Under the pieces are notes generated by a model. It was not told where the DNA came from, did not search any database, and worked only from the letters and a program-made list of their open reading frames with translations. Below, piece by piece: positions 3,131-24,068 of a DNA stretch of 64,000 nt. Location: NCBI GenBank assembly GCA_022560615.1, contig JADFSR010000001.1, positions 248,001-312,000 on the forward strand. The letters are read 5' to 3'. This stretch comes from Gemmatimonadota bacterium. GTDB lineage: Bacteria; Gemmatimonadota; Gemmatimonadetes; Longimicrobiales; Gaopeijiaceae. The translations under genes and the position numbers were made by a program. Every line of letters starts with the position of its first letter. Position 1 is the stretch's first letter.

Positions 3131-3778
3131 CTATATCAGATAAACGACCGTGAACAGGAGGATCCAGACCAGGTCCACGAAGTGCCAGTAGAGACCCATG
3201 ATCTCCACGCCGCCGAGATCGCCGGCGGTGTAGGCACCTTTGCGGGCGCGCCACAATGTGAAGCACAGGCAGAGTACTCCGATGGACACGTGTGCGCCGT
3301 GGAAGCCGGTCATCGTGTAGAAGGTGGCGCCGTAGAGCGGACCTCCGATCACCGCGCTCCCTTCGGCCGCCCCTCGAGCAATGGCGTGGTACGATTCGGC
3401 CATCGGCACGAAGCCCTCGCTGGACAGGATCGTGTACTCCACCGCCTGCACGCCGACGAAGAAGGCCCCGAGCAGGATCGTGCCGAGAAGCCACTTCTGC
3501 AGACCCTTCTGGTCTCCCTGCTCAATCGCCGCGAACGCCTTCACCATCGTGACGCTCGAGCAGATGAGCACGAAGGTGTTGAAGGCGGTGAGCGGTACGT
3601 TGAGCACGACCCCGGGCGCGGCGAAGGCCTCCGGGTGCGCGAAGCGCAGGATGATGTACGACCCGATCAGGCCGGTAAAGAACATGACCTCCGAGAGCAG
3701 GAACACCCACATCCCGAGCTTGAGGTGGTAGACCTTCATTCCGGCCATGGGGGCCCGGTCAGCGGTCATCGTCGTCAT
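3131..3778 (-). CDS. ctaE: Cytochrome c oxidase subunit III
   Basis: This 215-residue protein has five hydrophobic helices and the subunit III hallmarks MWVFLLSEVMFF, TGFHGAHV and YWHFVDLVWI. Subunit III stabilises the catalytic core and may help proton uptake; it binds no metal. Its start overlaps the subunit I stop by 4 nt (ATGA), indicating translational coupling. Length fits the shorter five-helix bacterial form. Confidence 0.93.
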   Translation of the reverse strand: MTTMTADRAPMAGMKVYHLKLGMWVFLLSEVMFFTGLIGSYIILRFAHPEAFAAPGVVLNVPLTAFNTFVLICSSVTMVKAFAAIEQGDQKGLQKWLLGTILLGAFFVGVQAVEYTILSSEGFVPMAESYHAIARGAAEGSAVIGGPLYGATFYTMTGFHGAHVSIGVLCLCFTLWRARKGAYTAGDLGGVEIMGLYWHFVDLVWILLFTVVYLI

Positions 3779-5592: not shown

Positions 5593-5663
5593 GTGGCCTT
5601 CCGGTCAAAACCGTTTTTCGTGTGACGTTGGTTCCCCATGTGGACGCTCCACCATGGCCGCGG

Positions 5664-6332
5664 TTAGGGGCGCTGCTGCGCCTGGGCGGTTGCCCAAGCC
5701 TGAAAGTCTGCCGCCGTGTGGATCGTGAGCGTCCCGCTCATGGTGTAGTGACCAATTCCGCACAGCTCGGCACAGCCGATCGTGTAGTCACCGGTCGCGG
5801 TCGCTTCGAACCAGACCGCGATGTCCCTGCCCGGAATGGCATCCTGCTTCACGCGCATCTCGGGCAGGAATAGTGAATGCAGCACATCCTCGGCGCGGAG
5901 GTGGATCCACACGGGCCGATCGACCGGGGCATGGATCTGATTCCGGACCACGAAGTCGTCGGCAGTCCCGAGGGCGCCGTCGGGCCCGGGGTAGGTCACG
6001 TTCCACTCGAACTGCTTGGCGGTCACGATGATCTCCATCGAGCCGGGCGGAACCTCGGATTTCATCCGGTCCCACACGCCTTTGCTCGCGATGCCGATCC
6101 CGAGACAGATAACGAGTGTACCCAAGGTCCACACAAGCTCTAACTTGTTGCTCCCGTGGTCGTACGTGGCCTTTCGCCCTTCCTTGTGGCGATACCTGAC
6201 GAGGAAGTAGATGAGCGCACTCTCCGTGAGGACGAAGATGACGCCGGTGATCCACAGGATGACGTAGTAGATCCTGTCGACGTCGTCCGAGAACGTCGAG
6301 AAGGCTTCCGGGAGCATCCAGCTCCAATTCAT
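5664..6332 (-). CDS. ctaC: Cytochrome c oxidase subunit II (CuA)
   Basis: A 222-residue subunit that takes electrons from cytochrome c. Two N-terminal helices (about residues 22-45 and 65-85) anchor an outward cupredoxin domain. The full CuA set is visible: His152, Cys187, Glu189 (backbone), Cys191, His195 and Met198. There is no CXXCH motif, so this is not the caa3 form with fused cytochrome c; the separate c cytochromes upstream may be the donors. It starts the oxidase operon after a 46-nt gap from the cupredoxin lipoprotein gene. Confidence 0.95.
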   Translation of the reverse strand: MNWSWMLPEAFSTFSDDVDRIYYVILWITGVIFVLTESALIYFLVRYRHKEGRKATYDHGSNKLELVWTLGTLVICLGIGIASKGVWDRMKSEVPPGSMEIIVTAKQFEWNVTYPGPDGALGTADDFVVRNQIHAPVDRPVWIHLRAEDVLHSLFLPEMRVKQDAIPGRDIAVWFEATATGDYTIGCAELCGIGHYTMSGTLTIHTAADFQAWATAQAQQRP

Positions 6333-6378
6333 AGTTGTCTCCGGCCGTGAGGCTCAGGACCTACCCGTCCGAAATCCC

Positions 6379-7242
6379 CTACTGAGGGTCCACCGTCCGG
6401 TGGCCCTGGGGATGCATCAGGTCGATCGGCTCGCCGAGCGGAACATGAGCCGCTGACATGTCCGAGTTGAACTCGAACGAGAGCTCGGCGGTCTCGCCCG
6501 TCACGACCGTGATGCTCTGGGTGATGGTCCCGTACATCTCGTGCCATGCCTCGACCACGTAGTCGCCGGGTGGCAGCCCTTGCAACGAGACCGATCCGTC
6601 CGTACCGGTGACCGCGAAGTACGGATGGTCCACGACGCCGATGTAAGCCGACATCCAGCCGTGCACGTTGCAGATCAACGGCACCATGATCTCGGCCGTC
6701 GCGAACGAGCGGTTCGTCTCCATGACGACCGGCTGACTCACGTTGAACGGCCGGTTCTCGGTCGGCGACGCGTTGATGTTGTGCAGGATCCCGTCGCTGT
6801 TGACTATGGTGTAGTCCTGCCCTGTCTGCACGCCGAGGACGTGGGGCGTGTACATGCAGCCGTCCTGGTCCAAGGCCACCCGCTCGGTGGGCGTCGGGAA
6901 GTCCATGCCCTCGAGGCCTTCCTTCACGTACACGAAGACGTTCGCGAGGCCACCGCCGTCGCCCACGATCACGGTCTCTGCCGTCGGAGTCATCGCATGC
7001 TTCGACGCGCAGACCGCCTCGTCGGACATGTCGATCTCGGCCATGGCCGGAGCCATGCCGGAGAAGGTGACCATGCCCGACGCGTGCCCGACCGTAGCCG
7101 GGTCGACGGGGGACGCCGCCGGCGCCGACTCACCTCCGGCGGAGGCGCCCGAGCCACCACCCTCATCCCCTCCACATCCCGCCACCGCCAACAGCGCGGT
7201 GACGAAGGCGACGCGCCCGGTCTTCCAAACTCTCTCAATCAT
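6379..7242 (-). CDS. Cupredoxin-like lipoprotein with carboxypeptidase-type regulatory domain
   Basis: I chose the ATG with GGAGG 4-5 nt upstream; it overlaps the preceding gene's stop by 8 nt and gives 287 residues. A lipobox places Cys23, followed by a Gly/Ser-rich linker. A cupredoxin-like region then shows a plausible type 1 copper set: His154 (LHN), Cys191, His194 and Met197 (CNVHGWM). Residues about 206-265 look like a carboxypeptidase regulatory (Ig-like) domain. Its place between the c cytochromes and the aa3 oxidase suggests an electron carrier between the two. That role is inference. Confidence 0.75.
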   Translation of the reverse strand: MIERVWKTGRVAFVTALLAVAGCGGDEGGGSGASAGGESAPAASPVDPATVGHASGMVTFSGMAPAMAEIDMSDEAVCASKHAMTPTAETVIVGDGGGLANVFVYVKEGLEGMDFPTPTERVALDQDGCMYTPHVLGVQTGQDYTIVNSDGILHNINASPTENRPFNVSQPVVMETNRSFATAEIMVPLICNVHGWMSAYIGVVDHPYFAVTGTDGSVSLQGLPPGDYVVEAWHEMYGTITQSITVVTGETAELSFEFNSDMSAAHVPLGEPIDLMHPQGHRTVDPQ

Positions 7243-9070
7243 GCTGCCTCCGTACGTCATTAGGTCGTGTGTGTATCCATGTCCCGATCATAGCGCTGAG
7301 GCCGGCGATCGCCAGGAACCCCGCGATGACCGTCCACCAGACGCCCAGGTCCGAATGTCCGGCGTCCCAACCGGCGCTGGCACTCCGGTAGGCTGCGAAC
7401 GCCATCCCGAGCCAAGCGACGCCCACGCCCATCCCGAAAGCCAGTTCAACGGACTTCGTCAACCTGAACCTTGGCAGTCGCCTTGTTATTCCGGCGCTCG
7501 CTCCACTCGCCTCCCACTGCGCTTGCCGGATCACAAGCAAACCGAACAAGAGCGTGAGCACCAGAGCGATCGGGGGCGCCACGTAGACCGACATCGGGGT
7601 CGGTTGCTCGAGGAACAGGAAGTACCACGTGCTCACCGCCCCCTGGTTTCCACTTTCGCCGTTGTCCCCATCCCACGCTTGGAACGCCACCGGCACCGTC
7701 TGGCCCACGGGGAAGACGAGATCCTCGGCCCCACCGGTGTCGAGCGACCTCACGAAGAGGACCCTCCACTCGCCGTCGGAGTGTTCCGCCTCTGCCCTCA
7801 CGTGCTGTTCACCGTCGGGCTGAGGAACCGCGGTGCCCATGCCGCGCGCGATGCTCTCCAACGCGTCCGGAACGTCGCTCCGCCACGTCCAGGTGTTCGT
7901 CGGTCGGCGCGTGTCTCCCTGGAGGAAGTACGGACGCTCCATGCCGTCCGACAGCGTCACCGGGAACTGGACGACGAGCTGGTCGGGCGCTCCCGAAGCC
8001 GTCGCCGCGCCCTCATCGCCCGGCCCCATGGTCTCGATCATCCGCTGCCCGAAGTCCGCCCAATCCGGGTCGGGGCTCGCGGACGGATCGGTCCACGAGA
8101 CGAGCAAGGCCAGCTCCTGTCCGTCGTGTAGGGCCTGGACCCACACGCCGCGGACGCGGGGGTTGAACCAGCGCGGCTTCACCACGATCTGGCCCACGAG
8201 AGGCACGTAGATGGCCTCTACCGCCTGCCAAGCCTCATCGCTCAGGGTCTCAGGAACGGTGCCGCCGATGATTCGCTTGGCCGAGACGACCTCGCGCACC
8301 TCGGGGAACTCCTCGGGTGACAGGCTGCGCACGTAGTGGGCGATGCCCCACAGGTCGTCGTCCGTGATCACATCGGCGATCTCGGAGAACGCCGGCATCG
8401 GCGTGCCGTCGAGACCCGTGCGCAGAACCCGGTAGATCTCCTCCACCGAGCCGCCACCGTTGAACGTCCAGTTCGCGGTCAGGTCGGCCGCGAAGATCGG
8501 GAAGCCGGCGTCGTCGCTCAGCGTCGCTGCCGACTCCCCGTCGCCACGGCCCTCCTGGCCGTGACAGCGCCAGCACTCGACGATGGTCTCGTAGACCTCC
8601 CGGCCACGAGCGATCGCCTCGTCCGTGCCGCGGGTAGCGCGGCTGAATTCGAGTTTTGCCGGCGCTTCGCCTTGGAAAAAGCGCGAGAAGGTCTTGAGAT
8701 AATCGACCAGGGCGAGGCGCTCGCCCTGGGTGAGCACGTCCTCCCAGCCCGGCATCGCGGTACCGGGCATGCCCTGGTCGATCACCTTGAGCATGTCGGC
8801 GTCGGTGGGCAGCTCGCCGGTAGCGGTGGTCCGAACCTGGTAGAGCGCGAGCGTGAAGTCCCGAGGTCGCGGCAGCATCGTGTTGGCCGCCGGGCCGTTT
8901 CCGGTGCCGTCCTCACCGTGGCAGCCCGCACACCATTCTACGTATACGCCCTCGCCGTCCACTTGAGCCGCGACAGTCGCGGGCACGAGCGGGACCGCCA
9001 CGAGCGCGAGTGCCAGGGACGCGGCCGCGAGACGCGCATCACACAACAACGGCAGCGCGAGGCGCATCAT
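7235..9070 (-). CDS. Dihaem cytochrome c fused to ethylbenzene-dehydrogenase-type haem domain
   Basis: A 611-residue protein with a signal peptide (about 1-35) and two cytochrome c domains with CAGCH (Cys47-His51) and CWRCH (Cys166-His170); Met106 in TAMPGW and a TPMPAF segment are candidate distal ligands. Residues about 270-500 resemble the EB_dh family, the haem b gamma-subunit fold of ethylbenzene/DMSO-type reductases. Three C-terminal helices (from about residue 505) anchor it. It overlaps the next cytochrome gene by 4 nt. No molybdopterin subunit is nearby, so the EB_dh domain has no obvious usual partner here. Confidence 0.8.
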   Translation of the reverse strand: MMRLALPLLCDARLAAASLALALVAVPLVPATVAAQVDGEGVYVEWCAGCHGEDGTGNGPAANTMLPRPRDFTLALYQVRTTATGELPTDADMLKVIDQGMPGTAMPGWEDVLTQGERLALVDYLKTFSRFFQGEAPAKLEFSRATRGTDEAIARGREVYETIVECWRCHGQEGRGDGESAATLSDDAGFPIFAADLTANWTFNGGGSVEEIYRVLRTGLDGTPMPAFSEIADVITDDDLWGIAHYVRSLSPEEFPEVREVVSAKRIIGGTVPETLSDEAWQAVEAIYVPLVGQIVVKPRWFNPRVRGVWVQALHDGQELALLVSWTDPSASPDPDWADFGQRMIETMGPGDEGAATASGAPDQLVVQFPVTLSDGMERPYFLQGDTRRPTNTWTWRSDVPDALESIARGMGTAVPQPDGEQHVRAEAEHSDGEWRVLFVRSLDTGGAEDLVFPVGQTVPVAFQAWDGDNGESGNQGAVSTWYFLFLEQPTPMSVYVAPPIALVLTLLFGLLVIRQAQWEASGASAGITRRLPRFRLTKSVELAFGMGVGVAWLGMAFAAYRSASAGWDAGHSDLGVWWTVIAGFLAIAGLSAMIGTWIHTRPNDVRRQHD

Positions 9071-9876
9071 TGCCCCGCCCCCTCGGTGCCTTCACCGCCT
9101 TCGGTCTCCTCCCACGCCCGGGGCGAGTGCCCCGTTTGCTCATACAGAAAGATGATGACCGACCAGATCTCGTCGGCCGTCAGGAAGTTCTCCCACGCAG
9201 GCATCGCCGAGTTCCATGGCGCGCCTTCGTTCGGGAGGCCAGGCCCACCCGTCGCGATGCGCCAAAAGACGAAGCTCTCGGTGAGCTGCGCGATGGTGCC
9301 GACGTCCTGGAAATTGAGCGGCGCGGGGTTGAAGCCCGGCGCGTAGTGGCCGCGTCCCCTGAGCGCGTCGCCGTGACACGCGACACAGTTCTGGTAATAG
9401 ACACGCTTGCCCTCTTCATAGTGCTCATCTAGCGATCCAGCGGTCCTGAGAGGGTTTTCGAGCCCGGTCAGCTCGATCGTCTCTCCCTGGAAGGGGATCG
9501 AGCTCGGGGGCGCCGGATGGATCGCGCGGAAGCTCGGCGGCGCCGACATGTCCGGGCGTGCGCGCCCGTACGCGATGAACGCCATCAGGAGCGGGACCGC
9601 GACCAGGAGCACCCCACGGGCGACCTTGCGGTCGGGGCGGACCAGAACCTCGTGGATCGGCTTCTTGAAGTCGGTCCAACGCTGCTCGTTGTCGCTCACC
9701 CATAGCAGGATTCCCACCATGACCGTGACCAGGTACTGGAGCACGACGGTGTTGGGTACCGGCGCGCTCGCGACTCCGAAGAGCGGCGGGATGTAGGGGA
9801 TCCCGAACTCGATCAGCGCGTAGGCGACGGCCAGGATCGCGATCGCCTGCCGGAACGGGGTTCTCAACCAGCCCAT
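9067..9876 (-). CDS. Membrane-anchored monohaem cytochrome c
   Basis: A 269-residue protein with three hydrophobic segments (about residues 10-35, 42-60 and 86-104), then a periplasmic cytochrome c domain with CVACH (Cys164, Cys167, His168) and a candidate distal Met in NSAMPAW near residue 225. A Glu/Gly-rich tail closes it. It overlaps its downstream neighbour by 4 nt and lies one base from the upstream dihaem gene, so the three cytochromes are tightly coupled. It probably passes electrons within the same membrane complex. Confidence 0.82.
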   Translation of the reverse strand: MGWLRTPFRQAIAILAVAYALIEFGIPYIPPLFGVASAPVPNTVVLQYLVTVMVGILLWVSDNEQRWTDFKKPIHEVLVRPDRKVARGVLLVAVPLLMAFIAYGRARPDMSAPPSFRAIHPAPPSSIPFQGETIELTGLENPLRTAGSLDEHYEEGKRVYYQNCVACHGDALRGRGHYAPGFNPAPLNFQDVGTIAQLTESFVFWRIATGGPGLPNEGAPWNSAMPAWENFLTADEIWSVIIFLYEQTGHSPRAWEETEGGEGTEGAGQ

Positions 9877-9877
9877 G

Positions 9878-10657
9878 TCAGCCCCCCTGCCCGGAGAGGA
9901 ACTGGACCAGCACTTCGAGTTGCCGCGCCGATATCATGTCGACGAGTGTCGGGGGCATTTGGCCCAGAACCTCTTCGTAGCCGTCCGCGGCCTCGGCCAT
10001 CGGATCGAGGATCGACCGTCGGATGCGGTCCGAGTCGATGCGGTCTCCCATTCCGTCGAACGGCGGGCCGATCTCGACTCCTTCCCCGTCGAGTATGTGA
10101 CATCCGAAGCACAGATTGGCGCGCATGATCTCGAGCGGATCCAGCGACGCGGTGAGGGGACCGCCGGAAGGTGGCGCGGCCGCGTCGGCCTCCGCGGCGC
10201 TAGCAACGTCCCCGCCGGTCACGGTGACCGCGCCGCCCTGGTCCTGCAAAAACGCCACCAGCGCCCAGATCTGGGCGCCGGAGAACACCCGCGCCTGGAA
10301 CACCATGGGGTCGAAGCCCTCGAGCACGTACGCGGTCGGGCTGGTGAGGGACTCGTAGATGTACGTCTTGCAGTCCACCCCCGGGACTCGGGTCCCGCAG
10401 CGCTGACCGATCGTGCCCTCACCCCCGTGATCGGTGAGCAGGTTCGGAGCACGCGTTTCGAGGCCGTGGCAAACGAGGCAGCCGCCGCCACCGTTGAAGA
10501 GTTCCCGGCCGGCCTCCACGAGCTCCGCTTCCGTGACGTCCGCCGAGAAGCTGAGCTCCTCGGGAACCACGGACTCGAGCTGCGGAATCGCGTTCGCGAC
10601 CCACGTATAGAGGACGAGCGTGCCGAGCACCACACCGAGAACCTTCAGGTTCGTCAT
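9878..10657 (-). CDS. Membrane-anchored dihaem cytochrome c
   Basis: A 259-residue protein with an N-terminal anchor (about residues 5-24) and two CXXCH sites: CLVCH (Cys60-His64) and CFGCH (Cys183-His187). An extra pair, Cys87 and Cys96, lies between them and could form a disulphide. Met residues near 118 and 232 are candidate axial ligands. The gene sits 4 nt after the CydA-like gene and one base before the next cytochrome, suggesting subunits of one complex. Confidence 0.82.
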   Translation of the reverse strand: MTNLKVLGVVLGTLVLYTWVANAIPQLESVVPEELSFSADVTEAELVEAGRELFNGGGGCLVCHGLETRAPNLLTDHGGEGTIGQRCGTRVPGVDCKTYIYESLTSPTAYVLEGFDPMVFQARVFSGAQIWALVAFLQDQGGAVTVTGGDVASAAEADAAAPPSGGPLTASLDPLEIMRANLCFGCHILDGEGVEIGPPFDGMGDRIDSDRIRRSILDPMAEAADGYEEVLGQMPPTLVDMISARQLEVLVQFLSGQGG

Positions 10658-10661
10658 CGGC

Positions 10662-12458
10662 TCAGTCCCCGGTCGCGGGTACGGGGGACGGCACCGAGCC
10701 CACCCCGGAGATCACCGGCTTCTCCGCCAGGCCTCCGATCCAGAAGATGAAGGACACCATCCCCAGGAACATCAGCACACAAGCCGAGATCACTATGGCG
10801 GCATAGCCCAGCGCCGGCGTGGCCGCGTCGACGCTCGTATCCCGCATGACCTCATAGATGTGCCAATGCTGCCGGATTCCGCTGCGCGCGAATCCCATGA
10901 GCCCCATGAGCCACGTAAACGTGACCGCCAGAATCAGGAGCGCGTATTGTGCGCGATCCGGCATCTCGCCCCAGCGGATCTCACCCCTGGACTCGGCTCC
11001 CCGCATCATCAAGACGTCGATCGTGAGGACGCCGGTGATCGTCGTGAGCACCGCGAGCACCTGATAGACGCTGAAGCCGATGCGGGTGAGCGCCGGTACG
11101 AAGTAGCCGTAGACGCCGTAGAAGAGCACCACCGCCGCCGAGATCACGAACAGCGCCCCCTGGATCGTAGTGCCCCTCCGAGCCCACGAAATCGTCGGAC
11201 GCTTGTTCGCCCTCCGGTAAAGCAGGAAGGACAGGAAGGTCGTGAGGATCATCAGATTCACGGCGGTGTTCTTGGCGCTCATGACGCCCAGAACCCCGAG
11301 GAACGGATGGAACTGGCCGCCCATAGCGGTAAGCTCGTCCCGGCTCGCGATCATGTTGCGCGGCGTCGCCCATACGATGACCCCGAGGACGAGCACCGCG
11401 AGCATCCACTTGGTGTAGGGCTGGAAGCGCTCGGCGCCGGGAATGCGCCCCATGCCGACCCACAGGTAGTAGTTTCCCGCCAGGAAGAGCACGCCGATCA
11501 GGAAGGCCTGCACGACCCAAAGCCAGCTCATGAAGCCACCCATCATCGTGGTGCCCATCTGCTGGTTGAATTCGTAGATCTCCCTGCCCAAGTAGTAGCC
11601 GGCGAAGGGGAGCACGATCAGCGCGCTGATCGCGACGAAGTTCCCGATATAGCCCATCCAGTCGTAGTGGGCCCGCTCCTCCTCGGTCTCTGAATTCAGG
11701 AAGCGAAACGCAGCGTATGCACCGACGATCGCTCCGCCGAAGACGATGTTCGCGATGAATCTGTGGATGTTGATCGGCATCCATGTGGCGTTCGCGAACG
11801 CGCTCCAGAACCGGACCATGTCCGGCGCGGTGTCGGGGGTGACCTCCGCCGGCGGGCTCATCATGTAGGTCACCCAGGAGTTGGCGATGACCATCACGAT
11901 CGTGCCCCAGATGTTCAGCAGGACGCCGAGCCCCCAGTGGCCCCACTTCGCGCGTCCTTTCTTCCAATGGTCCCAGCCGTAGTAGTACAGGTAGAGCGTG
12001 AACGACTCGAAGAAGAAGACCCCGACGTAGACCCACATCGACGGAGCGAAGATCTCGGCGAGGTAACCCCACACCCGCGGGTACAGCGTGATGAGCGCGA
12101 AGACCAGCACCGCGCCCCAGATGGCAGTGGCCGAGTAGGAGATGAGAAGCAGCCGGGTGAACTCCTTGGCCAACTTGTCGAAGCGCTCTTCCTTGTTGAC
12201 CATGCCGATCAACTCCGCGACCACCGCGAACATCGGCACGCCGAGCACGAAAGCGGCGAAGAAGAGATGGAGCTGCGCGGCGATCCACACCGCGGCCCGC
12301 GATCCGATGAGGGGAAAGTCACCGTACTCCCGGGGCGTGTAGCCCTGAGCGAGCAGTGGGTCCGCCAGCAGCGCTAGCAGGGCTACCACCCCACCCGCGC
12401 ACAGCAACGGCAGCGCCGTCCGCCGCAGGATTCGAGCGAGCGACGTACGCTCAGGCAT
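10662..12458 (-). CDS. CydA-like (cytochrome bd subunit I family) membrane protein without CydB
   Basis: I chose the ATG with AAGGAAAGG upstream, 8 nt inside the preceding gene; the GTG 24 nt earlier is possible. The 598-residue protein has many helices and CydA features: an N-terminal QLHLFF helix matching the conserved His, FFFESFTLYLYYYGWD matching the bd Glu-containing helix, and an INIHRF segment matching the second conserved His. The quinol-loop motif GRQPW appears as a variant, SGIRQHW. No cydB gene is adjacent, while c cytochromes follow at once. A quinol-to-cytochrome c role, rather than O2 reduction, is a reasonable but untested inference. Confidence 0.78.
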   Translation of the reverse strand: MPERTSLARILRRTALPLLCAGGVVALLALLADPLLAQGYTPREYGDFPLIGSRAAVWIAAQLHLFFAAFVLGVPMFAVVAELIGMVNKEERFDKLAKEFTRLLLISYSATAIWGAVLVFALITLYPRVWGYLAEIFAPSMWVYVGVFFFESFTLYLYYYGWDHWKKGRAKWGHWGLGVLLNIWGTIVMVIANSWVTYMMSPPAEVTPDTAPDMVRFWSAFANATWMPINIHRFIANIVFGGAIVGAYAAFRFLNSETEEERAHYDWMGYIGNFVAISALIVLPFAGYYLGREIYEFNQQMGTTMMGGFMSWLWVVQAFLIGVLFLAGNYYLWVGMGRIPGAERFQPYTKWMLAVLVLGVIVWATPRNMIASRDELTAMGGQFHPFLGVLGVMSAKNTAVNLMILTTFLSFLLYRRANKRPTISWARRGTTIQGALFVISAAVVLFYGVYGYFVPALTRIGFSVYQVLAVLTTITGVLTIDVLMMRGAESRGEIRWGEMPDRAQYALLILAVTFTWLMGLMGFARSGIRQHWHIYEVMRDTSVDAATPALGYAAIVISACVLMFLGMVSFIFWIGGLAEKPVISGVGSVPSPVPATGD

Positions 12459-13896
12459 CGACACCCTTTCCTTGTGAGCCACCTCCGTCGTCCGAACGCA
12501 GGAAGAAGGGGAGCTTCTTGGAGAAGTCTACGGGCATCGAGCGACGCACCTCAGCCATGACTTCGAGGTCGACTGCGGAATAACCGCGCTTTCTCGCGAA
12601 CTCTTCGACCCGGTTGGTGACGACGCCTCGAACGAAGCTCGGAATCCGCTCCAGCCGTTGCCGCGCCTCGGGCGTCCACTCGAGCGCCGTCTCGGTCGCC
12701 TGACCGTACGTGATCGGGCGCTGGCGCTGGACGAGCGGCCGATCGCCCGGCGGGTCGTACACACACGACTCGTCGCTTCCCAGCAGGTCGCCGGACTGGG
12801 CGTACGCGCGGGCGCGACACCCACCGCACACCTCGCGGTACTCGCAGCGCCCACACTTACCGCTGAGCTCTCCCTCGCGGAGCGCGCCGAAGACGGGGGA
12901 AGATGTCCACACCTCGCGGAACGATTCACGCGTGAGATCACCCGCGACCGTCGGAAGGTACGGGCACGGTGTGACCTTCCCCTCCGGCGTGATGCGACAG
13001 TAGTGGACGCCGCACGGGCAGCGCGTCTCGTAGTTGAGGAGTCCCGACTCGACTCCGGCCTCGAGAACGTGGCGCATCAGCTGTGGCTGGCACTTGGAGC
13101 GGACCATGAGACGGCCGCGATACTCCTGCTCGAGCGAGAGCAGCTCGGCGAGGACCTCCTCGTTCTCCCTCGGCGTCAGCCCCTGCATTCCCTCGCCGCG
13201 CCCGGTAGGAACGAGAAAATAGAGGTTGAACGAGACCGCACCCTTTTCCGCCGTCCAGGCTACCAGGTCGGAAAGCTCGTCGCGGTTCCCCCTCGTGAGG
13301 CTGGTCTGGATGACGAAGTCCAGCTCGTGCCGCACGAGGCGGTCCACCGCGGCGAGCGTTCCTTCGAGCGCGCCGACTCCGTGGCGGAATCGATCGTGAT
13401 ACGTCGGATTGAGGGAGTCCACGCTCACCGCCACGCCCCGCACACCGGCTGCCTTCAGAGAGTCGATGCGCTCGTGCGTGAGGCCGATCCCGTTCGTGCC
13501 CACCACGACCGTAGCCCCCGCCGAGGCGGCGCGCTCCGCGATAGACTCCAGGTCGTCGCGCAGAAGAGGCTCGCCACCGCTGAGGATGAGCAGCATCGAC
13601 GGGTTCACCGCTAGCAGATCGTCGAGAATGCGGAAGCACTCAGCGGTGGACAGCTCACCCTCGGTCCCGTGCCAGGCCCCTGCCGAGATGTAGCAGTGGG
13701 AGCACTCGAGGTTGCAGCGGCGCGTGAGGTTCCAGGCGACCACGTGGGGAAGAAGTGTTCCTCCGGCGCTGGTGTCCACCGGGTCGCCCCACGGCAGCGC
13801 CGAGCCAGAGGCCGGCGGAAAGTCGACGACCGGCAGCGGCGGCACGCGCGAGGCGGCGCTCCCCATGCCTGACGTGCCGGTGTCCGCTACGCTCAC
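12451..13896 (-). CDS. NirJ/AhbD-like radical SAM-SPASM protein with C-terminal PCP_red-like domain
   Basis: The GTG start overlaps the upstream stop (GTGA) and gives 481 residues; a frame continues upstream but overlaps the USP gene. The radical SAM cluster motif CNLECSHCY is followed by LILSGGEPLL and VPTGRG, a pattern of haem d1/haem b biosynthesis enzymes NirJ and AhbC/D. A SPASM-type region with Cys clusters (RCPCGVHYC, PCPY, CGRCEYREVCGGC) follows. Residues about 405-454 match the PCP_red pattern (EWTPEARQRL...IPSFVRG), otherwise known at the C-terminus of protochlorophyllide reductase BchB/ChlB. It may modify a tetrapyrrole or a peptide for the neighbouring cytochromes. The fusion is unusual. 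Confidence 0.8.
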   Translation of the reverse strand: MSVADTGTSGMGSAASRVPPLPVVDFPPASGSALPWGDPVDTSAGGTLLPHVVAWNLTRRCNLECSHCYISAGAWHGTEGELSTAECFRILDDLLAVNPSMLLILSGGEPLLRDDLESIAERAASAGATVVVGTNGIGLTHERIDSLKAAGVRGVAVSVDSLNPTYHDRFRHGVGALEGTLAAVDRLVRHELDFVIQTSLTRGNRDELSDLVAWTAEKGAVSFNLYFLVPTGRGEGMQGLTPRENEEVLAELLSLEQEYRGRLMVRSKCQPQLMRHVLEAGVESGLLNYETRCPCGVHYCRITPEGKVTPCPYLPTVAGDLTRESFREVWTSSPVFGALREGELSGKCGRCEYREVCGGCRARAYAQSGDLLGSDESCVYDPPGDRPLVQRQRPITYGQATETALEWTPEARQRLERIPSFVRGVVTNRVEEFARKRGYSAVDLEVMAEVRRSMPVDFSKKLPFFLRSDDGGGSQGKGVDA

Positions 13897-16064
13897 TCCG
13901 AAGCGCCCTCGTCCTTCATGTACTCCTCGACCGCGGCCTTCGCTTGCTCCGGAGTGGCGGTCTTGAAGTCGATCGGGCACTCCTCCACAGCCTCGGCGAC
14001 GTCGCGGATCGGGCAGCGCGTGACGCCGCTCGCCTTGGCCTCCTCGATGAATCGCCTCATCTCCGGAGTCAGGCCGTCGACACCTTCGGCCGCGGCTTTG
14101 AGCTGCTTGGACTGGAGCTCGCGGAACATGACGAGCATCGTGTCCATGTCGAACTCGTCGGCCTCGATCATCGCGTCCTTGTTCTCGTCCATGACGAGCG
14201 TCGTGACGCGCCAGAAGCCGTGCCCTCGTGCGAATCGCTCCACTGTGTTGCGCGCCAGCGGCCGCGCGATGAGCGGCACGGCGCGGAGGCGCTGGAAGGC
14301 CTCGTTGGTCCAGGCGACGGGATCCGCCTCGGTCCGCTCACGGGTCTGCACCTGACCGGTGTAAGGGCACGCCGTGGAGATCATCGGTACGTCCGCCTCA
14401 GGGTCGGCGTCGCTTCCTTCGACGTGCGTCCGCTTCATCGCCTCTTCGGCCTTGACCTCCGCAAGCGCCAGCTCTTCCGCCGTCCCAATGCCCATGATGA
14501 GCTGCATGTGGGTGGGGAGGAGCTTGGTGATCGCCTCATCGAGCCGGTCGCCGGTCACGAGGGGACGCTGGTCGATGCCGAGTGGCGGAACCGCAACCAT
14601 GGGCTCGTCAGCGCTCGGCGCGGACGTGCCGTTGCTCGCCGATGCGCCGTCGCCCTCCGCCTTGCCGTTTTGTGCCCGCGCGCCCGCCAGGAGCGCCTCC
14701 GCGCGACGGCTGCCGTTGGTCGCCACGTTGTCCTCGCGGTACGTCCCGTTGGCGCCCTCGCCGTAGTTGTCGAGAACGAACTCTTCCACCGCCCGCCGCG
14801 CGATTCCCAGCGCGAAGGGCGGAACCCTGAGGATGCGCACCTCGGCATCCGGCGCCCACTCGAGTCCGGTCTCGCCGTCCTCCTCGATCCACGGAATGTC
14901 CTCGGGCCCAACGTTCTGAATCCCGACCAGCAGGACGCTGGTGTCGGTCAGGCGAATGAGGTTGTCAGCCTGGGAGCCGAGGTCCGTCCCCTCGATCCGA
15001 TGGCTGCCGTGGCGCGCTATGACGAGTACCGCGGGCTCGATCTCCTTGGCCCAGCGGAGGATACAGTCGAAGGGCTTGCCGACCAGGATCTGAGTCTCGA
15101 CCGGCACGTCGGGGAACTCTTCGGCCAGGACCTGCCCGCGCTTCAGGTTGGCCTTGCAGAGCTTCAGCAGCCCCTTGTCGATGATGTTGTTGTGGAGCTC
15201 TTCCTGCTCCTCGAACTTGAAGACCTTCGACGCCGCGACCGACAGCACGTCTTTGATGTTCCCGAAGACGACGTGGTGGTACTCCACGTCGAACGCCGAG
15301 CATATGTAGAGCGACGCGTCGAACTCCTGGGCCATCTCGAGCGCGACTCGCAGCGCCTTGTAGCTGTAGGCGGACCCGTCGACGCACACCATCATCTTGC
15401 CGTCCTGGAGCGGACGGTCGTTGCGGATGATGAGGGCGTCTTTTTCCACCTTGCGCAGCACGCGTGCGACGACCCCACCGAGCTGGGAGAACTCCTGCCG
15501 GCCGATCCCGTGCGCACCCATGATCAGGAGGTCGTAGTCGCGACCGCTGGTGCCCGCGAGCTTGTCGTCCGGGTCCTCGTCTTCCGCGACCAGCCTGCCG
15601 TCCTCGCCCAGGATGACGTCGCCTCGCACCGTGGCCCCGCCGTCGTACTTGTCGGCGATGTTGGGGTCGAACCCGATCAGGCTCGGCAGTCGACCCTCGC
15701 CACCGTTGGTCTCCCTGATGATCTCCTCGTAGTTGATCCCCTCGAGGAGCTGACGCGCGAGCGGAACGTCGGCCGCCTTGCACAGCTTCTCGGTCTGGTC
15801 GAGGAACGAGTCGGAGATCAACTGCAGGCCCTTCTCGATGAGCTTGTCGTGGATCTTGCGCTGCCGCTTGATCTCCTTGGCCGTCTGGAACCGCGCCGGG
15901 AGCCCGGTCTCCAGCTGCCGGAAGCGGACATCGTGAAGCCGCGCGGCGTAGACGTGGTTTCCGGTGATTCGACCTTCCGTGCGGCGACAGAGCTCGATCG
16001 CTCGGGCGACCGCCCAGTTGGAGGGATCGGAGTTGTCGACCGGAACCAGAATCTCTTTATACAT
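13893..16064 (-). CDS. Tandem universal stress protein with two PCP_red-like domains
   Basis: The ATG with AAGGGG at the right distance gives 723 residues; an upstream in-frame start lacks such a site. The N-terminal part holds two USP (nucleotide-binding alpha/beta) domains, starting near residues 1 and 225, each ending in a Gly-rich patch (GAHGIGR, ARHGSHR). Residues about 401-436 and 583-626 resemble PCP_red domains (EWAPDAEVRIL, AWTNEAFQRL), separated by a low-complexity Ala/Gly/Asn linker. The C-terminus is helical and acidic with a CPIRD...CPIDF pair. It heads the run that continues into radical SAM and cytochrome genes. Function unknown; a scaffold or cofactor-handling role is speculation. 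Confidence 0.75.
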   Translation of the reverse strand: MYKEILVPVDNSDPSNWAVARAIELCRRTEGRITGNHVYAARLHDVRFRQLETGLPARFQTAKEIKRQRKIHDKLIEKGLQLISDSFLDQTEKLCKAADVPLARQLLEGINYEEIIRETNGGEGRLPSLIGFDPNIADKYDGGATVRGDVILGEDGRLVAEDEDPDDKLAGTSGRDYDLLIMGAHGIGRQEFSQLGGVVARVLRKVEKDALIIRNDRPLQDGKMMVCVDGSAYSYKALRVALEMAQEFDASLYICSAFDVEYHHVVFGNIKDVLSVAASKVFKFEEQEELHNNIIDKGLLKLCKANLKRGQVLAEEFPDVPVETQILVGKPFDCILRWAKEIEPAVLVIARHGSHRIEGTDLGSQADNLIRLTDTSVLLVGIQNVGPEDIPWIEEDGETGLEWAPDAEVRILRVPPFALGIARRAVEEFVLDNYGEGANGTYREDNVATNGSRRAEALLAGARAQNGKAEGDGASASNGTSAPSADEPMVAVPPLGIDQRPLVTGDRLDEAITKLLPTHMQLIMGIGTAEELALAEVKAEEAMKRTHVEGSDADPEADVPMISTACPYTGQVQTRERTEADPVAWTNEAFQRLRAVPLIARPLARNTVERFARGHGFWRVTTLVMDENKDAMIEADEFDMDTMLVMFRELQSKQLKAAAEGVDGLTPEMRRFIEEAKASGVTRCPIRDVAEAVEECPIDFKTATPEQAKAAVEEYMKDEGASE

Positions 16065-16427
16065 GGCACCCCTTGGTTGTCTGCAACACACACGCACGGG
16101 TGCCCACAACGCCAGACCGTCGCTCTCGGGTCTCGGCGCCCCCTATATACAGCGGCCTGGGCCACTTCGGGCGACCGTGCTGGTTCTGCGTTTTATGTCC
16201 GGTGGCCTACTAGGCGAACTGCCCCCACCGGTTCTTAACTAGATGTTGAGGAGGCTCGGGCAGGCGCGCTCGACCAGCCGATCCGGCCCGAAGGGGGCTA
16301 GTATGGGATGGCCACCAAGAGGTTGTCAACCGTCCCCCAAGAGCCCCAAAGCCCCCCACCAACGGCCTGATCTAAAAGTCTGAAGTGACCCACGACAAGC
16401 CGCAGGATACGCGGGCGCGCGCGCCCG
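16065..16427. other. Intergenic region with possible promoter for the downstream minus-strand run
   Basis: No gene is supported in these 363 bases. A TATATA at 16144-16149 reads as a possible -10 box (GTATATAG) on the minus strand, 80 nt before the USP start, but no convincing -35 accompanies it. A 14-bp perfect GC palindrome at 16413-16426 follows the permease stop directly but lacks a loop and T-tract. Promoter assignment is weak. Confidence 0.35.
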
Positions 16428-17141
16428 TCAGGCCCTTCTCGACACCCCGAGCGATCCTGTCAGCCGACCGGCCAGAACCCAGGTCGCGACCGCCATGACC
16501 ACACCCCAGACCCCCAGGGCCGTACCTCCACCGACCGCCGTCATCATGCTCATCGAAAGCAGCGCCTCGTGGAGCGCGCGAAACGGAGCCACGCTCTCTA
16601 CAGCGGCCCCGAGGGATCCCGGCACGGGCGTGCGGAACACTCCGGACGCGTGCAGGAGTAGCAGGGTACTGACCGCGGAAAAGAGGGCCGCCTCCGCGAG
16701 CGACCGGGTCGCGGCGGCCACGAGCACGCCTAGGAGGTTCGCGACCCACACCGTGGCCGCGAGCGCCACGAAGGCCACGAGGAACGCGCGCGGACCCGCA
16801 CCCGCCCCGACAGCGGCCACCGCGAGCGCGGGCCCCAGCTGTAGCACGTCGAGCACAGCTCCGGCGGCTGTCCGCTGCAGAAAATAGCTGGCAGGCGGGA
16901 CTCCGGCTCGGAGCACACGTCCCGATAGGCCGGACTCGCCGTCACGAACGAGGGGGATCGCGGACCCGAAAGCGCTGAAGATCGCGAACAGCACCGTGTA
17001 GACCGCCGCCGCGTGCACCGCCGGCGCCGCACCCATGGCGACCGGCAGGACAAGAAGTAGGGGCACCACGACGTTGAGGACGAAGAGCCGCCTGCGCGCG
17101 GTGGCGATGCGCCACTCGAGCTCCCACACGATGGCGGTCAT
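16428..17141 (-). CDS. ABC transporter permease (CcmB/ABC-2-like)
   Basis: The ATG overlaps the ATPase stop (ATGA) and gives 237 residues. About six helices span the protein after a short cytoplasmic start rich in Arg. The layout (RDGESGLSGRVL loop after helix 2, small size, pairing with a short ATPase) resembles CcmB-type haem-exporter permeases and small ABC-2 permeases. In a cluster full of c cytochromes a role in cytochrome maturation is attractive, but no CcmC/E/F/H gene is seen in the window. Substrate unknown. Confidence 0.7.
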   Translation of the reverse strand: MTAIVWELEWRIATARRRLFVLNVVVPLLLVLPVAMGAAPAVHAAAVYTVLFAIFSAFGSAIPLVRDGESGLSGRVLRAGVPPASYFLQRTAAGAVLDVLQLGPALAVAAVGAGAGPRAFLVAFVALAATVWVANLLGVLVAAATRSLAEAALFSAVSTLLLLHASGVFRTPVPGSLGAAVESVAPFRALHEALLSMSMMTAVGGGTALGVWGVVMAVATWVLAGRLTGSLGVSRRA

Positions 17142-18121
17142 CCGTCGAGCTCCGCGCCGGTGACGCTCCGAAAGACCGCGGCCAGGCCGACATTCCGTAC
17201 CGCGACGCCGCGGATCCGGGCTCCGGCCGCCACGAGCGCCCGGCACGCATCGGGGAGCGCGGCCTGGCCGCGCTCGCTCTCGAGCACGAGCGGATCTCCG
17301 CCATCCACGAGGGTGATCCCTTCACCGAGGACGAGCTCGGCGCTGTCAACTGGTCTGTCGAGCGTGAACTCGAAACGCGTGACGTCCGGCATCGCGGCGA
17401 GCAGCTCGTCGGGGCTTCCTCCGGCGACGACGCGGGCATCGTGGATGAACACGATCCGATCCGCGAGCTGGGGAAGGAGATCAAGATCGTGGCTGGCCAT
17501 CACCACCGTGCCCCCTTCAGCGGATCGCTCTCGCAGCAGGTCGGCGAGCGCCTCGCGCGAGTCCAGGTCCAGACCAACGAACGGCTCGTCGAGGAGCGTG
17601 AGCGTCGGCCGGTGCGCGAGCGCCTCCACCAGGAGCAGCTTACGTCGAGCCCCGAACGAGTAGGTCGAGACCGGTCGAGAGGCGTCCTCGGCGAGGCCCA
17701 GCCGATCGAATTGCTCCCGAACAGCGGCCTCGGCCTCTTCGCGACTGAGGCCTGCGGCTCTCGCGAAGAACACCGCGTTGTGTGTGCCGGAGAGAGACTC
17801 GAAGTGGCACGCCTCCTCGCCCGCATAACCCATCGCCACACGCCCTGCCGCGTTCCGGCGGGAGGGCAGGTGGAGCACGCCGGCGTCGGGAGCGATGTCC
17901 CGCGCCAGGAGCCTGAGCAGGGTGCTCTTCCCGGCCCCGTTCGGTCCGACGAGCGCCACAATCTCCCCTGAGCGGCCTTCCAGATCGATGCCGTCGAGCG
18001 CCGGGGCGCCGGAGTCGTAGCGGTAGCTCAGCCCCTCGGCATGGACCACCGGGTCGAACGCCGGGTCGAACGCCGGATCGGAGCCCCGGTCGGCGTCGGG
18101 GCCGGCGTCGGGGCCAGACAC
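17138..18121 (-). CDS. ABC transporter ATP-binding protein
   Basis: A 327-residue ATPase. Walker A is GPNGAGKST (about residue 59), a Q-loop-type region follows, the signature is degenerate (TYSFGARRKLLLVEAL), Walker B is LTLLDEP and the switch His is in SHD. Residues beyond about 235 form an extra alpha/beta domain as in drug or haem exporters. The first 25 residues are low complexity and are encoded by two different 12-bp tandem duplications, so translation may begin later (near VVHAEGL). Paired with the overlapping permease gene. Confidence 0.85.
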   Translation of the reverse strand: MSGPDAGPDADRGSDPAFDPAFDPVVHAEGLSYRYDSGAPALDGIDLEGRSGEIVALVGPNGAGKSTLLRLLARDIAPDAGVLHLPSRRNAAGRVAMGYAGEEACHFESLSGTHNAVFFARAAGLSREEAEAAVREQFDRLGLAEDASRPVSTYSFGARRKLLLVEALAHRPTLTLLDEPFVGLDLDSREALADLLRERSAEGGTVVMASHDLDLLPQLADRIVFIHDARVVAGGSPDELLAAMPDVTRFEFTLDRPVDSAELVLGEGITLVDGGDPLVLESERGQAALPDACRALVAAGARIRGVAVRNVGLAAVFRSVTGAELDG

Positions 18122-18124
18122 GCC

Positions 18125-18574
18125 CTACATGCCCTCCAGGCCCAGGTCGCTTCGGGCCCGATCCATGACCTCGGGCGTGATCATATGGATCTCGCGCTCC
18201 ATGGCGTAGTCGGCGTAGATGCGCTTGACCATGCCGCGCACGAAGCGGGGAACGTTCTCTAGGCGCTCGGTCGCCTCCGTAGACCAGGTCACGGGTCCAG
18301 TCGTGGCGGGGGGTGTCGCCGGGGCCTCGAAGGCGTCCTCACGAGGCGAGTCCATACCCATGCGGGTCTGCTGCATCGGCTGCTCCGGGACCGTTCGGCC
18401 GCCGATCTCTACACCCAGCGAGGTGATCAGCTGCGTCTCCATGGGGTTGGTCAGAAGTGCCATCTCCCGCTTGCAACCGGGGCAGGTGAAGATCGCCGTG
18501 AGGGTGCCGTCGCCGGGAAGCTGTCGCTCGGCGAAGGCCATCACCTCGTCGCAGGTCAGGCAGAGAAACTTCAT
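18125..18574 (-). CDS. Zinc-ribbon protein with PCP_red-like C-terminal domain
   Basis: The ATG overlaps the ATPase stop (ATGA) and gives 149 residues. The N-terminus has two CXXC pairs (CLTC at 4-7, CPGC near 31-34), a probable zinc ribbon. Residues about 95-142 follow the PCP_red pattern (TWSTEATERL...VPRFVRG, then ITPEVMDRA), the clearest copy in this cluster. It sits between the Mrp-like ATPase and the ABC exporter with minimal spacing. No enzyme motif is seen; an adaptor that binds a shared partner or tetrapyrrole is a hypothesis. Confidence 0.75.
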   Translation of the reverse strand: MKFLCLTCDEVMAFAERQLPGDGTLTAIFTCPGCKREMALLTNPMETQLITSLGVEIGGRTVPEQPMQQTRMGMDSPREDAFEAPATPPATTGPVTWSTEATERLENVPRFVRGMVKRIYADYAMEREIHMITPEVMDRARSDLGLEGM

Positions 18575-19491
18575 GAAGCTGCCTCGCGCCCCCCGACGCC
18601 TCGTTCCACTCGATCGGCCAGGGCCTGGAAGGCCTTCCCGAATAGGGAATCGTCGCTCGCGCCCGGGGGGTCGCCGCCGTCGGTACGGGCCCCCATTCCG
18701 GGGTCGAACGGGATCTCCGCCCACAGCTCCAGGCCCGTGGACTCCGTCAGGCGCCGGATGCCGTCACCGGAGAAGAGCGGGAGCGGCCGCACCGCACCCG
18801 GCGAAGCGTATCCGGACATGTTGCCCACGACGCCGATCGACTCCACTCCCGCCTCCTGGAGCATAGCCACCGAGCGCGACACGACCGAGAGCGCCACCTC
18901 CGAGGGAATCGTGACCACGAGGACGCTCGCAGGATTGGGAACCAGGTCGAGGAACCGCCCGATCTTGTCGGTGCCCGGCGGAATGTCGATCAGCAGATAG
19001 TCCAGCTCGCCCCAGACGACATCCGAAAGGAATTCCCGCAGCACCGCGGCCTCGGTCAGGCCCAGCCATACGACGCGGTCCGAGTCGGGACCTTTCCAGC
19101 GGAGCGGAGCGTCCTCCTTCAGCAAGAGCTCGGTCGAGATCCCGAGCACACCAGCGGCCCCGGCCGGTGGCACCACCCCATCGGGACCGTCCACGAGCCT
19201 GCTCCCCAGAAGACCCAGCATGCGGCCGAGCGAAGGCCCGTTGAGATCCGCGTCCACGACGCCGACGCGAGCGCCTCGCCGGGTGAGCGATACCGCGAGG
19301 TTGGCGGTCACCGCGCTCTTGCCGACACCTCCCTTGCCGCTCGCGATCGCGATGACCGCGCCGATCGTCTCAAGGCGAGCCGAGACTTTGGCGTGCTGCG
19401 CGAGCACTTGTTCCAGGAGCTGGGAGCCCGTCTCGTGCGACACCTCGGCATACCCCCGAACCTTGCGTGGCTCACCGGCCGTGTGACCCAT
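18571..19491 (-). CDS. Mrp/NBP35-like P-loop ATPase
   Basis: A 306-residue ATPase of the ParA/Mrp class with a deviant Walker A (GKGGVGKS, about residue 50), DADLNGPS switch and IDIPPGT. Mrp/ApbC proteins load or carry Fe-S clusters through a C-terminal CXXC after the segment GNMS. Here that place reads GNMSGYASPGA, so the two cysteines are missing. The ferredoxin gene ends directly before its start and the zinc-ribbon gene overlaps its stop. Either the protein uses partner cysteines or it has another role such as complex assembly. Confidence 0.82.
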   Translation of the reverse strand: MGHTAGEPRKVRGYAEVSHETGSQLLEQVLAQHAKVSARLETIGAVIAIASGKGGVGKSAVTANLAVSLTRRGARVGVVDADLNGPSLGRMLGLLGSRLVDGPDGVVPPAGAAGVLGISTELLLKEDAPLRWKGPDSDRVVWLGLTEAAVLREFLSDVVWGELDYLLIDIPPGTDKIGRFLDLVPNPASVLVVTIPSEVALSVVSRSVAMLQEAGVESIGVVGNMSGYASPGAVRPLPLFSGDGIRRLTESTGLELWAEIPFDPGMGARTDGGDPPGASDDSLFGKAFQALADRVERGVGGREAAS

Positions 19492-19734
19492 CTACGGGAC
19501 CAACAGCGTGCCCGAGGCGTCGAGAACCTCCAGGGCGTCGACCGGACACGACTTGCAAGAGCCCAGAACGTCCTCGTGCGCTGTCCCGTTCGTGTCGGCG
19601 CAAAAGATCGCGATCCCTTCGTCGTCGAGCTCGAACAGATCGGGCGCAACCTCGATGCATGTCTCGAACCCGACGCAGAGCAGCCGGTCGATCCGGACCG
19701 TCACACCGGCGACTTTACGTTCTTGCGAGTCCAT
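19492..19734 (-). CDS. Single-cluster ferredoxin
   Basis: An 80-residue acidic protein with cysteines at 20, 26, 60 and 63 in CVGFETC and CKSCPVD, the layout of short [3Fe-4S]/[4Fe-4S] ferredoxins of the Fer4_13/15 kind. Cys45 is additional. Adjacent, with no spacer, to the Mrp-like ATPase. It could supply electrons to the radical SAM enzyme of the same cluster; this is inference from context. Confidence 0.85.
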   Translation of the reverse strand: MDSQERKVAGVTVRIDRLLCVGFETCIEVAPDLFELDDEGIAIFCADTNGTAHEDVLGSCKSCPVDALEVLDASGTLLVP

Positions 19735-22452: not shown

Positions 22453-22613
22453 ATAGGCCGGCGGGGGTCGAGAATGACGTGCCCTCGGGTGATACCGGAG
22501 TCGCCCCTCCCGGATCCGATGCCGGCACACGGCCGCGTTCGTCAACGGGCGAATGAGCCCGTACAATCTTCCCTCGAGTCGGACCCGAGCAATAGTCTTC
22601 CAGGTTGAGCACC

Positions 22614-23939
22614 ATGAAAAAGATGACCACCGGTTACCAGTTGATCGCCCTCGTTTCCCTCGTCGCGACCGCCGCCTGCGGCGGGAACGACTCTGGTGCG
22701 GTCGCCGAGAGCGAAGCCGACCTGGTCGAACGCGCGCGTGGCATCCACGAGCGAGTGATCACCCTCGACACGCACAACGACATCAGCCCGGCGAACTTCA
22801 CCGCCGAGCGCAACTACACGATGGCACTTCCCACGCAGGTGAACCTCCCGAAGATGGAGGCGGGCGGCTTCGACGTATCCTGGATGATCGTCTATGTGGG
22901 TCAGGGGGATCTGACCCCTGAGGGATACGCGAGCGCGCATCAACAGGCGCTCGAGAAGTTCGAGGCGGTCCATCGGCTCACTGAAGAGATCGCGCCGGAC
23001 CGGATCGAGCTCGCACTGACGTCTGACGACGTGCGGCGCATCGTCGGGGCGGGCAAGAAGGTCGCGATGATCGGGGTTGAGAACGCGTATTCAATCGGTA
23101 CTGACATCTCTAACATCGAGCGGTTCCACGAGATGGGCGCTCGCTACATGTCGCTCGCGCACAACGGGCACAGCCAACTCGCGGACTCGAACACCGGCGA
23201 GCGGGACGACGTCTGGCTGCACGGTGGTCTCAGCGAGCTTGGACGCCAGGCGATCGCAGAGATGAACAGGCTCGGTATCATGATCGACCTCTCGCATCCT
23301 TCGAAAGAAGCGAACATGCAGACTCTAGACCTGTCCCGGGCGCCGGTCATCGCGTCGCATTCGGCAGCACGCGCAGTGGGAGACGTGAGCCGCAATCTGG
23401 ACGACGAGCAGCTCATGGCGCTCAAGGAGAACGGCGGCGTGGTGCAGACCGTCGCGTTCCGGGGTTACGTGAACCCCGAAAAGAACAACGCCAACCGAGA
23501 GGCGCGCACCGCGTTGGAGCGGAGTGTCGCCGACGAGATGGGCGTCGAGCTGGTAGACCGGGGCGGGCGCTTCAGGATGAGCGCTGAAGATCGCGACGCA
23601 TACGATGCGGCCTTCCAGCCGGTTCAGGAGGCCGTCGAGGCGCGAATGGAAGCTGAAGTGACTGCCGTCGCCCCGCCCGTCGACGTCTCCGACTTCGTCG
23701 ACCACATCGACTATCTCGTGAGCCTCATCGGCGTCGAGCACGTCGGCATCAGCTCCGACTTCGACGGGGGAGGCGGTGTCGAAGGGTGGAACGACGCGTC
23801 GGAGACGTTCAACGTGACGCTCGAGCTCGTACGCCGCGGCTACACCGAGCAGCAGATCGGGATGCTGTGGAGCGGCAACCTGCTGCGGGTGTTGGACGAC
23901 GTACAGGCGGTGGCGGCGGAGATGCAGTCCGAGGGCTGA
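22614..23939 (+). CDS. Membrane dipeptidase (peptidase family M19), exported
   Basis: The ATG at 22614 gives 441 residues with a signal peptide and lipobox-like AAC (about residue 22). The binuclear zinc motif LDTHND (about residues 48-53), the bridging Glu region, an ASHSAAR segment and SSDFDGGGG near the C-terminus are M19 hallmarks. The family hydrolyses dipeptides, often with D-residues. It is transcribed divergently from the lipoprotein gene and leads to another exported hydrolase, suggesting peptide scavenging outside the cytoplasm. Confidence 0.9.
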   Translation: MKKMTTGYQLIALVSLVATAACGGNDSGAVAESEADLVERARGIHERVITLDTHNDISPANFTAERNYTMALPTQVNLPKMEAGGFDVSWMIVYVGQGDLTPEGYASAHQQALEKFEAVHRLTEEIAPDRIELALTSDDVRRIVGAGKKVAMIGVENAYSIGTDISNIERFHEMGARYMSLAHNGHSQLADSNTGERDDVWLHGGLSELGRQAIAEMNRLGIMIDLSHPSKEANMQTLDLSRAPVIASHSAARAVGDVSRNLDDEQLMALKENGGVVQTVAFRGYVNPEKNNANREARTALERSVADEMGVELVDRGGRFRMSAEDRDAYDAAFQPVQEAVEARMEAEVTAVAPPVDVSDFVDHIDYLVSLIGVEHVGISSDFDGGGGVEGWNDASETFNVTLELVRRGYTEQQIGMLWSGNLLRVLDDVQAVAAEMQSEG

Positions 23940-24068
23940 GCCGCGCCCTTCGCGCGTACGTACGGCGGACGTGGAGGTGCGCGTGTTCAGCGTGCTGTCG
24001 TCCGTCCGCTGTACAGGATCGGGCGAAGACCTCTACTTTGGCGGACTCATCTTACCGGAGCCCCTGGG

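Follow-up and report, generated by a model that had tools for sequence, protein, structure and literature searches.

The PCP_red domain (Pfam PF08369) is known from the B subunit (BchB/ChlB) of the dark protochlorophyllide reductase (DPOR), and it serves among the markers of phototrophy (PMC12815261). The accessible parts of the open-access literature describe no function for this domain, DPOR included; nothing was found there on PCP_red outside chlorophyll synthesis, and no paper on the gene system considered here. Other related systems are the radical SAM (S-adenosylmethionine) haem enzymes AhbD and NirJ, and the cytochrome bd superfamily, which, according to the available parts of the sources, includes cytochrome c-oxidising OR-C and OR-N types (PMC10839748, PMC12342949). 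We analysed a stretch of 64,000 nucleotides from a Gemmatimonadota bacterium (contig JADFSR010000001.1, positions 248,001 to 312,000; below, the window), where four copies of PCP_red lie in three neighbouring proteins of a respiratory locus. In two phyla this gene set is found together with an uncharacterised bd-type oxidase, a pairing that points to a hitherto unrecognised machinery for haem supply or insertion. A domain of a chlorophyll enzyme is here uncoupled from chlorophyll and tied to respiration.

All three proteins match PF08369 above its Pfam gathering cut-off of 32.5 bits. They are a radical SAM protein with a SPASM domain and a C-terminal PCP_red (481 aa, 12451-13896), a tandem universal stress protein (USP) with two PCP_red copies (723 aa, 13893-16064; Usp 113.3 bits), and a zinc-ribbon (CxxC...CxxC) protein with a C-terminal PCP_red (149 aa, 18125-18574). 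These and all other genes of the cluster are on the minus strand. The domain occupies residues 407-451 of the radical SAM protein (12544-12678; 55.9 bits, E 4.4e-15) and residues 97-141 of the ribbon protein (18152-18286; 48.7 bits, E 7.9e-13). The USP protein scores 49.1 bits over two stretches, the best being copy 2 at residues 585-629 (14178-14312; 40.3 bits). When the whole genome (4.5 Mb, 99% complete) was searched in six frames (E<=1; window offset 248000), just four PCP_red places emerged, all within 5.7 kb. Three exceed the cut-off (61 bits in the radical SAM protein, 51 in the ribbon protein and 40.3 in the USP protein), and the fourth is a partial match of 22.3 bits at 14772-14858, covering profile positions 1-29. 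It belongs to copy 1 of the USP protein (14520-14858), which is interrupted: residues 403-431 are followed by a low-complexity insert of about 70 residues (approximately 14565-14771) and then by residues 501-515 or so. In some orthologues this linker is reduced to about 6 residues, and insert-free orthologues score 39-43.5 bits across the full profile (41.2 bits in genome G201). Judged by these orthologues, the weak fourth copy is a genuine PCP_red split by the linker. The initial annotation, made from the sequence alone, had claimed exactly this pattern of four copies in three proteins, and the profile search agrees with it.

There is no sign of a chlorophyll pathway or photosynthesis in this bacterium. 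No nitrogenase-like Pfam match was observed in the radical SAM, USP or ribbon proteins, and BchB is absent from the genome as judged by PCP_red, all four matches being in this locus. In a control set, PF08369 was above the cut-off in one of 14 genomes, the cyanobacterium Synechococcus.

The conserved gene set comprises a single-cluster ferredoxin (19492-19734; Fer4_13 40.2 bits), an Mrp/NUBPL-type P-loop ATPase (18571-19491; PF10609 205 bits) and the three PCP_red proteins. It is followed by a gene for a CydA-like subunit of a cytochrome bd-type oxygen reductase (10662-12458), scoring 75.9 bits with PF01654 against a cut-off of 26.2. The same genes recur up to the contig ends in 14 sampled Gemmatimonadota stretches, and in 39 of 40 full-length named loci the whole set has CydA-like, c-type/EB_dh cytochrome and CoxAB genes at its side. 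The module was found in 53 and the CydA-like gene in 51 of 200 Gemmatimonadota genomes, and all 51 CydA-like genomes carry the module (counts in both phyla are uncorrected for relatedness). Other Gemmatimonadota with two strong PCP_red matches are, from the scores and sizes, probably phototrophs with BchB. Among 95 Methylomirabilota genomes, PCP_red was found in 64, the CydA-like gene in 59 and both in 57; that is, PCP_red occurs in 57/59 CydA-like-positive versus 7/36 negative genomes (Fisher p 1.5e-15, again uncorrected for relatedness). In many of them the CydA-like gene and a PCP_red open reading frame (ORF) of radical SAM size lie on one contig, adjacent or at most about 17 kb apart. In a third group, the phylum of a genome labelled Armatimonadetes, PCP_red was present in 2 of 43 genomes. 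As a marker of phototrophy, PF08369 fires in many genomes through the respiratory locus; in the genome studied here all matches belong to it.

AlphaFold2 models were made for the ribbon and USP proteins. In the ribbon protein PCP_red forms three confident helices, and the top Foldseek matches are the solved PCP_red structures 2kru (Chlorobium BchB) and 2l09 (Asr4154 of Nostoc). With 2kru the identity is 36% and the root-mean-square deviation 1.3 A over 53 columns. In VIA the same pair has Z 8.4 (58 residues, 2.1 A), and all remaining rows have 5.7 or less, including 2l09 with Z 5.3. The DPOR chain 2ynm_D superimposes at 1.4 A over 50 residues. The profile of the ribbon family, compared with the PDB, matches 2xdq_B (E 1.7e-9) and 2kru (E 8.5e-8), and that of the radical SAM family matches the C-terminus of the BchB chain 2xdq_B (E 1.9e-9). 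The USP model matches the tandem USPs 4r2j, 3cis and 3ab8 and has the PCP_red helix pattern at both copies: helices 405-411, 416-434 and 505-515 in copy 1, with a disordered linker at 442-492 (pLDDT<50), and 587-594, 598-614 and 622-634 in copy 2. Lid domains of RuvB/Rvb AAA+ proteins also resemble residues 90-149 of the ribbon model (VIA Z 4-6), possibly through nothing but a common three-helix arrangement.

The conserved positions in an alignment of 156 PCP_red copies from nine contexts are W, A, P and R. There is no conserved His, Cys, Met or Tyr among these copies, that is, no candidate metal ligand; ligation of haem iron by PCP_red is therefore unlikely, and we rejected it. A related possibility is that the domain itself binds a tetrapyrrole, and the four domains pass haem or its precursor from the enzyme to the oxidase. 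Indeed, the sole characterised PCP_red proteins, those of DPOR, act on tetrapyrroles, and PCP_red recurs here beside an AhbD-like enzyme. However, the conservation pattern offers no ligand, and one copy tolerates a 70-residue insert. In addition, the available part of the description of DPOR assigns its pigment site to the two subunits plus the opposing BchB' (with D274), and does not name the C-terminal domain in this context (PMC12518044). We consider tetrapyrrole binding by the domain improbable. A docking element suits PCP_red better than a cofactor pocket, because the domain is repeated, is fused to unrelated proteins and tolerates insertion; hence a partner-binding role is favoured over a tetrapyrrole-binding one. 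Candidate partners are Mrp, the oxidase and other PCP_red proteins.

The number of copies per protein ranges from one to at least four. Some Rokubacterial proteins consist almost wholly of at least three PCP_red domains (locus L173, 3335-4225 and 14870-15877; L176, 1034-2728; L198, 8669-9637), and those of L173 are near CydA-like and EB_dh genes. In the same locus a protein of the U32 peptidase family (8153-9421) is encoded between the ribbon-PCP_red and CydA-like genes. In Rokubacteria a gene for a D-Ala-D-Ala carboxypeptidase is the conserved neighbour of stand-alone ribbon genes, but sheds no light on function. Recent origin of the domain from BchB of the same phylum is unsupported, as the BchB copies form a separate clade (support 1.0); with only some 45 columns behind it, this tree is weak apart from the BchB clade. 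Plasmid searches yielded ordinary USPs alone for the USP protein and no match for the ribbon protein.

The radical SAM enzyme is the plausible link of the set to tetrapyrroles. Among NCBIfam families the haem enzymes NirJ2 (TIGR04055, 284 bits), AhbD (TIGR04545, 266.7 bits) and NirJ score far above MftC (132), PqqE (112) and SkfB. Its conserved cysteines are 61, 65 and 68, and then 269, 293, 311, 348, 351, 357, 360 and 378, the latter spaced C-x23-C-x17-C-x36-C-x2-C-x5-C-x2-C-x17-C. The full SPASM motif of AhbD from methanogens and sulfate reducers is CX3CX2C plus CX20-33CX17CX36-37CX2CX5CX2CX17-35C (PMC10452713); NirJ and AhbC have CX2CX5CX20-21C (PMC12505453). The AhbD motif fits the window protein and 95/96 radical SAM ORFs of the module, and none of the other radical SAM ORFs sampled from this genome. 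The enzyme does not replace ChdC, a marker of the coproheme pathway, as the two co-occur in both phyla: in Gemmatimonadota ChdC is present in 48/53 module genomes versus 41/147 others, while the Methylomirabilota matches (PF06778) are in part weak and partial. Coproheme is therefore probably available, and the radical SAM protein is probably not the sole terminal haem enzyme, because ChdC co-occurs. It could be a second, O2-independent route for growth at low oxygen, or could make another haem.

In the CydA-like subunit H64 and H232 are invariant and align with histidines of solved CydA chains; we take them to be haem ligands. No CydB was observed among the cluster proteins scanned, part of the ORFs being outside the scan. 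To our knowledge, the cofactors of the bd-like oxidases of widespread environmental bacteria have not been determined so far.

The Mrp gene belongs to the set in both phyla. PCP_red might dock proteins onto a P-loop ATPase, which would be Mrp in this locus and BchL in DPOR, and the module would be an ATP-gated relay of a cofactor or electrons. PCP_red is paired with a P-loop ATPase and a ferredoxin in DPOR too, and 2ynm_D, from DPOR with the ATPase bound, is the sole full-length BchB chain among the structure matches listed. On the other hand, the Mrp protein of the window lacks the CxxC Fe-S motif and contains no cysteine at all. This motif is kept by most Mrp homologues of the same operon, but the genus studied here and several other clades have lost it. 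Carriage of an Fe-S cluster as an essential role of Mrp was rejected because of these repeated losses, which also mean that a relay based on Fe-S cannot apply in general. Moreover, that the genes occur together is not evidence of contact, and we regard this explanation as unlikely, if less so than tetrapyrrole binding.

In the USP proteins of Rokubacteria PCP_red is matched three times, and a rubredoxin-like ribbon is intact. The ribbon has four cysteines and sits between the PCP_red copies (L165, 6602-8539; L168, 553-2484; L172, 5985-7964). In its place the Gemmatimonadota USP proteins retain one cysteine (C566, in CPxTG), followed by two invariant CP dipeptides (C684, C696). Some USPs bind ATP or AMP. 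The set could thus be a redox or energy sensor, combining nucleotide binding by USP with the ribbon and ferredoxin, that regulates the respiratory operon and has no part in maturation. However, this leaves the AhbD-like enzyme unexplained, and the scanned proteins showed no Pfam DNA-binding domain; of the explanations considered it is the least probable.

Our preferred explanation, which is tentative and somewhat short of an even chance, is an AhbD-type cytoplasmic assembly that supplies or modifies haem for the CydA-like oxidase and is joined by PCP_red docking modules. Together with the Mrp-type ATPase and the ferredoxin, the three PCP_red proteins would form one conserved cytoplasmic assembly serving the oxygen reductase encoded alongside. 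Its catalytic part would be the AhbD-type radical SAM protein, acting on a tetrapyrrole with ferredoxin as the electron partner. The simplest reaction would turn coproheme into haem b with no need for O2 or H2O2, and the alternative would be synthesis of a variant haem. Docking by PCP_red would join the enzyme with the USP and ribbon proteins, possibly on the Mrp ATPase, and the haem would be passed to the oxidase at low oxygen. The analysis establishes the domains, the fold of one copy, the conserved gene set, its co-occurrence with the oxidase and the cysteine pattern, while we infer the physical complex, docking, the substrate and haem chemistry, and the direction of delivery. The initial annotation had named a NirJ/AhbD-like enzyme, an Mrp-like ATPase, a ferredoxin, a CydA-like protein and cytochromes as neighbours, all recovered by family scans, and had suggested a shared tetrapyrrole- or partner-binding module in haem handling. 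A role in haem handling fits, because the set tracks the CydA-like oxidase in two phyla (51/51 and 57/59 CydA-like-positive genomes) and the enzyme has the AhbD cysteine pattern; of the two suggested functions, partner binding is favoured.

Several observations weigh against the haem-supply assembly. The in-depth survey covers two phyla, 200 and 95 genomes. PCP_red occurs without a detected CydA-like gene in 2 Gemmatimonadota and 7 Methylomirabilota, many of these assemblies being fragmented. CoxAB is equally linked to the module in the named Gemmatimonadota loci, and gene linkage is no proof of a complex. Coproheme decarboxylation would be redundant, because ChdC coexists. Finally, the enzyme is far below the 500-bit cut-offs of both NirJ2 and AhbD, its nearest solved structures in the profile search of the PDB are SkfB and PqqE, and most SPASM enzymes act on peptides. 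The protein may thus modify a peptide or protein, e.g. an oxidase subunit or cytochrome, with no relation to haem chemistry. The NCBIfam ranking and the AhbD-type cysteine spacing speak against this, as does the lack of any noticed gene for a short precursor peptide, although no systematic search was made; we assign peptide modification the same low probability as tetrapyrrole binding.

A broader version of the haem-supply assembly is rather doubtful. In it PCP_red, hitherto tied to chlorophyll synthesis, would serve generally as a tag for assembly that brings together a radical SAM haem enzyme and carrier proteins. Such a multi-protein system of haem maturation, not described before, would make a non-standard haem or load haem for a whole class of bd-type oxygen reductases. 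It follows from the proposed assembly that bd-like oxidases in widespread environmental bacteria should have a maturation apparatus dedicated to them.

The operon begins with the genes for ferredoxin, Mrp and ribbon-PCP_red, followed by an ABC-2 transporter pair (16428-18121), USP-PCP_red, radical SAM-PCP_red and the CydA-like subunit. The ABC pair was rejected as a core component: it is an optional passenger, present in just 20/40 full-length named loci. Downstream of the CydA-like gene are two cytochromes c (9878-10657, Cytochrom_C/Cytochrome_CBB3; 9067-9876, Cytochrome_CBB3, probably membrane-anchored), a fusion of cytochrome c with the haem b-binding EB_dh domain (7235-9070; EB_dh 75 bits, Cytochrome_CBB3 twice), and a conserved distal part encoding a carboxypeptidase-regulatory-like protein, CoxB and CoxA (3775-7260). 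A CtaG match after CoxA (97.7 bits) is under its cut-off; a putative CoxC and an Sco-like protein were read by eye beyond CoxA. Apparently unrelated dipeptidase-like and amidohydrolase-like genes are on the plus strand (22605-25205).

The locus shares features with several described systems. Asr4154 of Nostoc, for which we know of no function, likewise has PCP_red in a protein other than BchB (62 residues in the solved chain, 2l09), but it is a stand-alone domain. The available parts of the papers on OR-C and OR-N oxidases mention no PCP_red, USP or radical SAM partners (PMC10839748, PMC12342949); as in those types, the CydA-like gene, not assigned to a subfamily, is clustered with c-type cytochromes and no CydB was noticed. 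The haem d1 enzymes NirJ and NirJ2 give the best NCBIfam score and have the CX2CX5CX20C motif in common (PMC12505453), whereas the window enzyme is below the cut-off, has four more SPASM cysteines, as in AhbD, and no nir operon was seen in the neighbourhood examined. AhbD shares the radical SAM domain and the full eight-cysteine SPASM with fitting spacing (PMC10452713) at 266.7 bits, whereas the window enzyme, below the cut-off of 500, carries PCP_red, coexists with ChdC and adjoins an oxidase. DPOR has the same 45-residue C-terminal domain on BchB/ChlB and is likewise partnered by a ferredoxin and a P-loop ATPase. Here, however, no nitrogenase-like core was found in the three proteins, and PCP_red occurs four times, on radical SAM, USP and ribbon parts. 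The gene set thus offers a tractable route to the role of PCP_red in DPOR.

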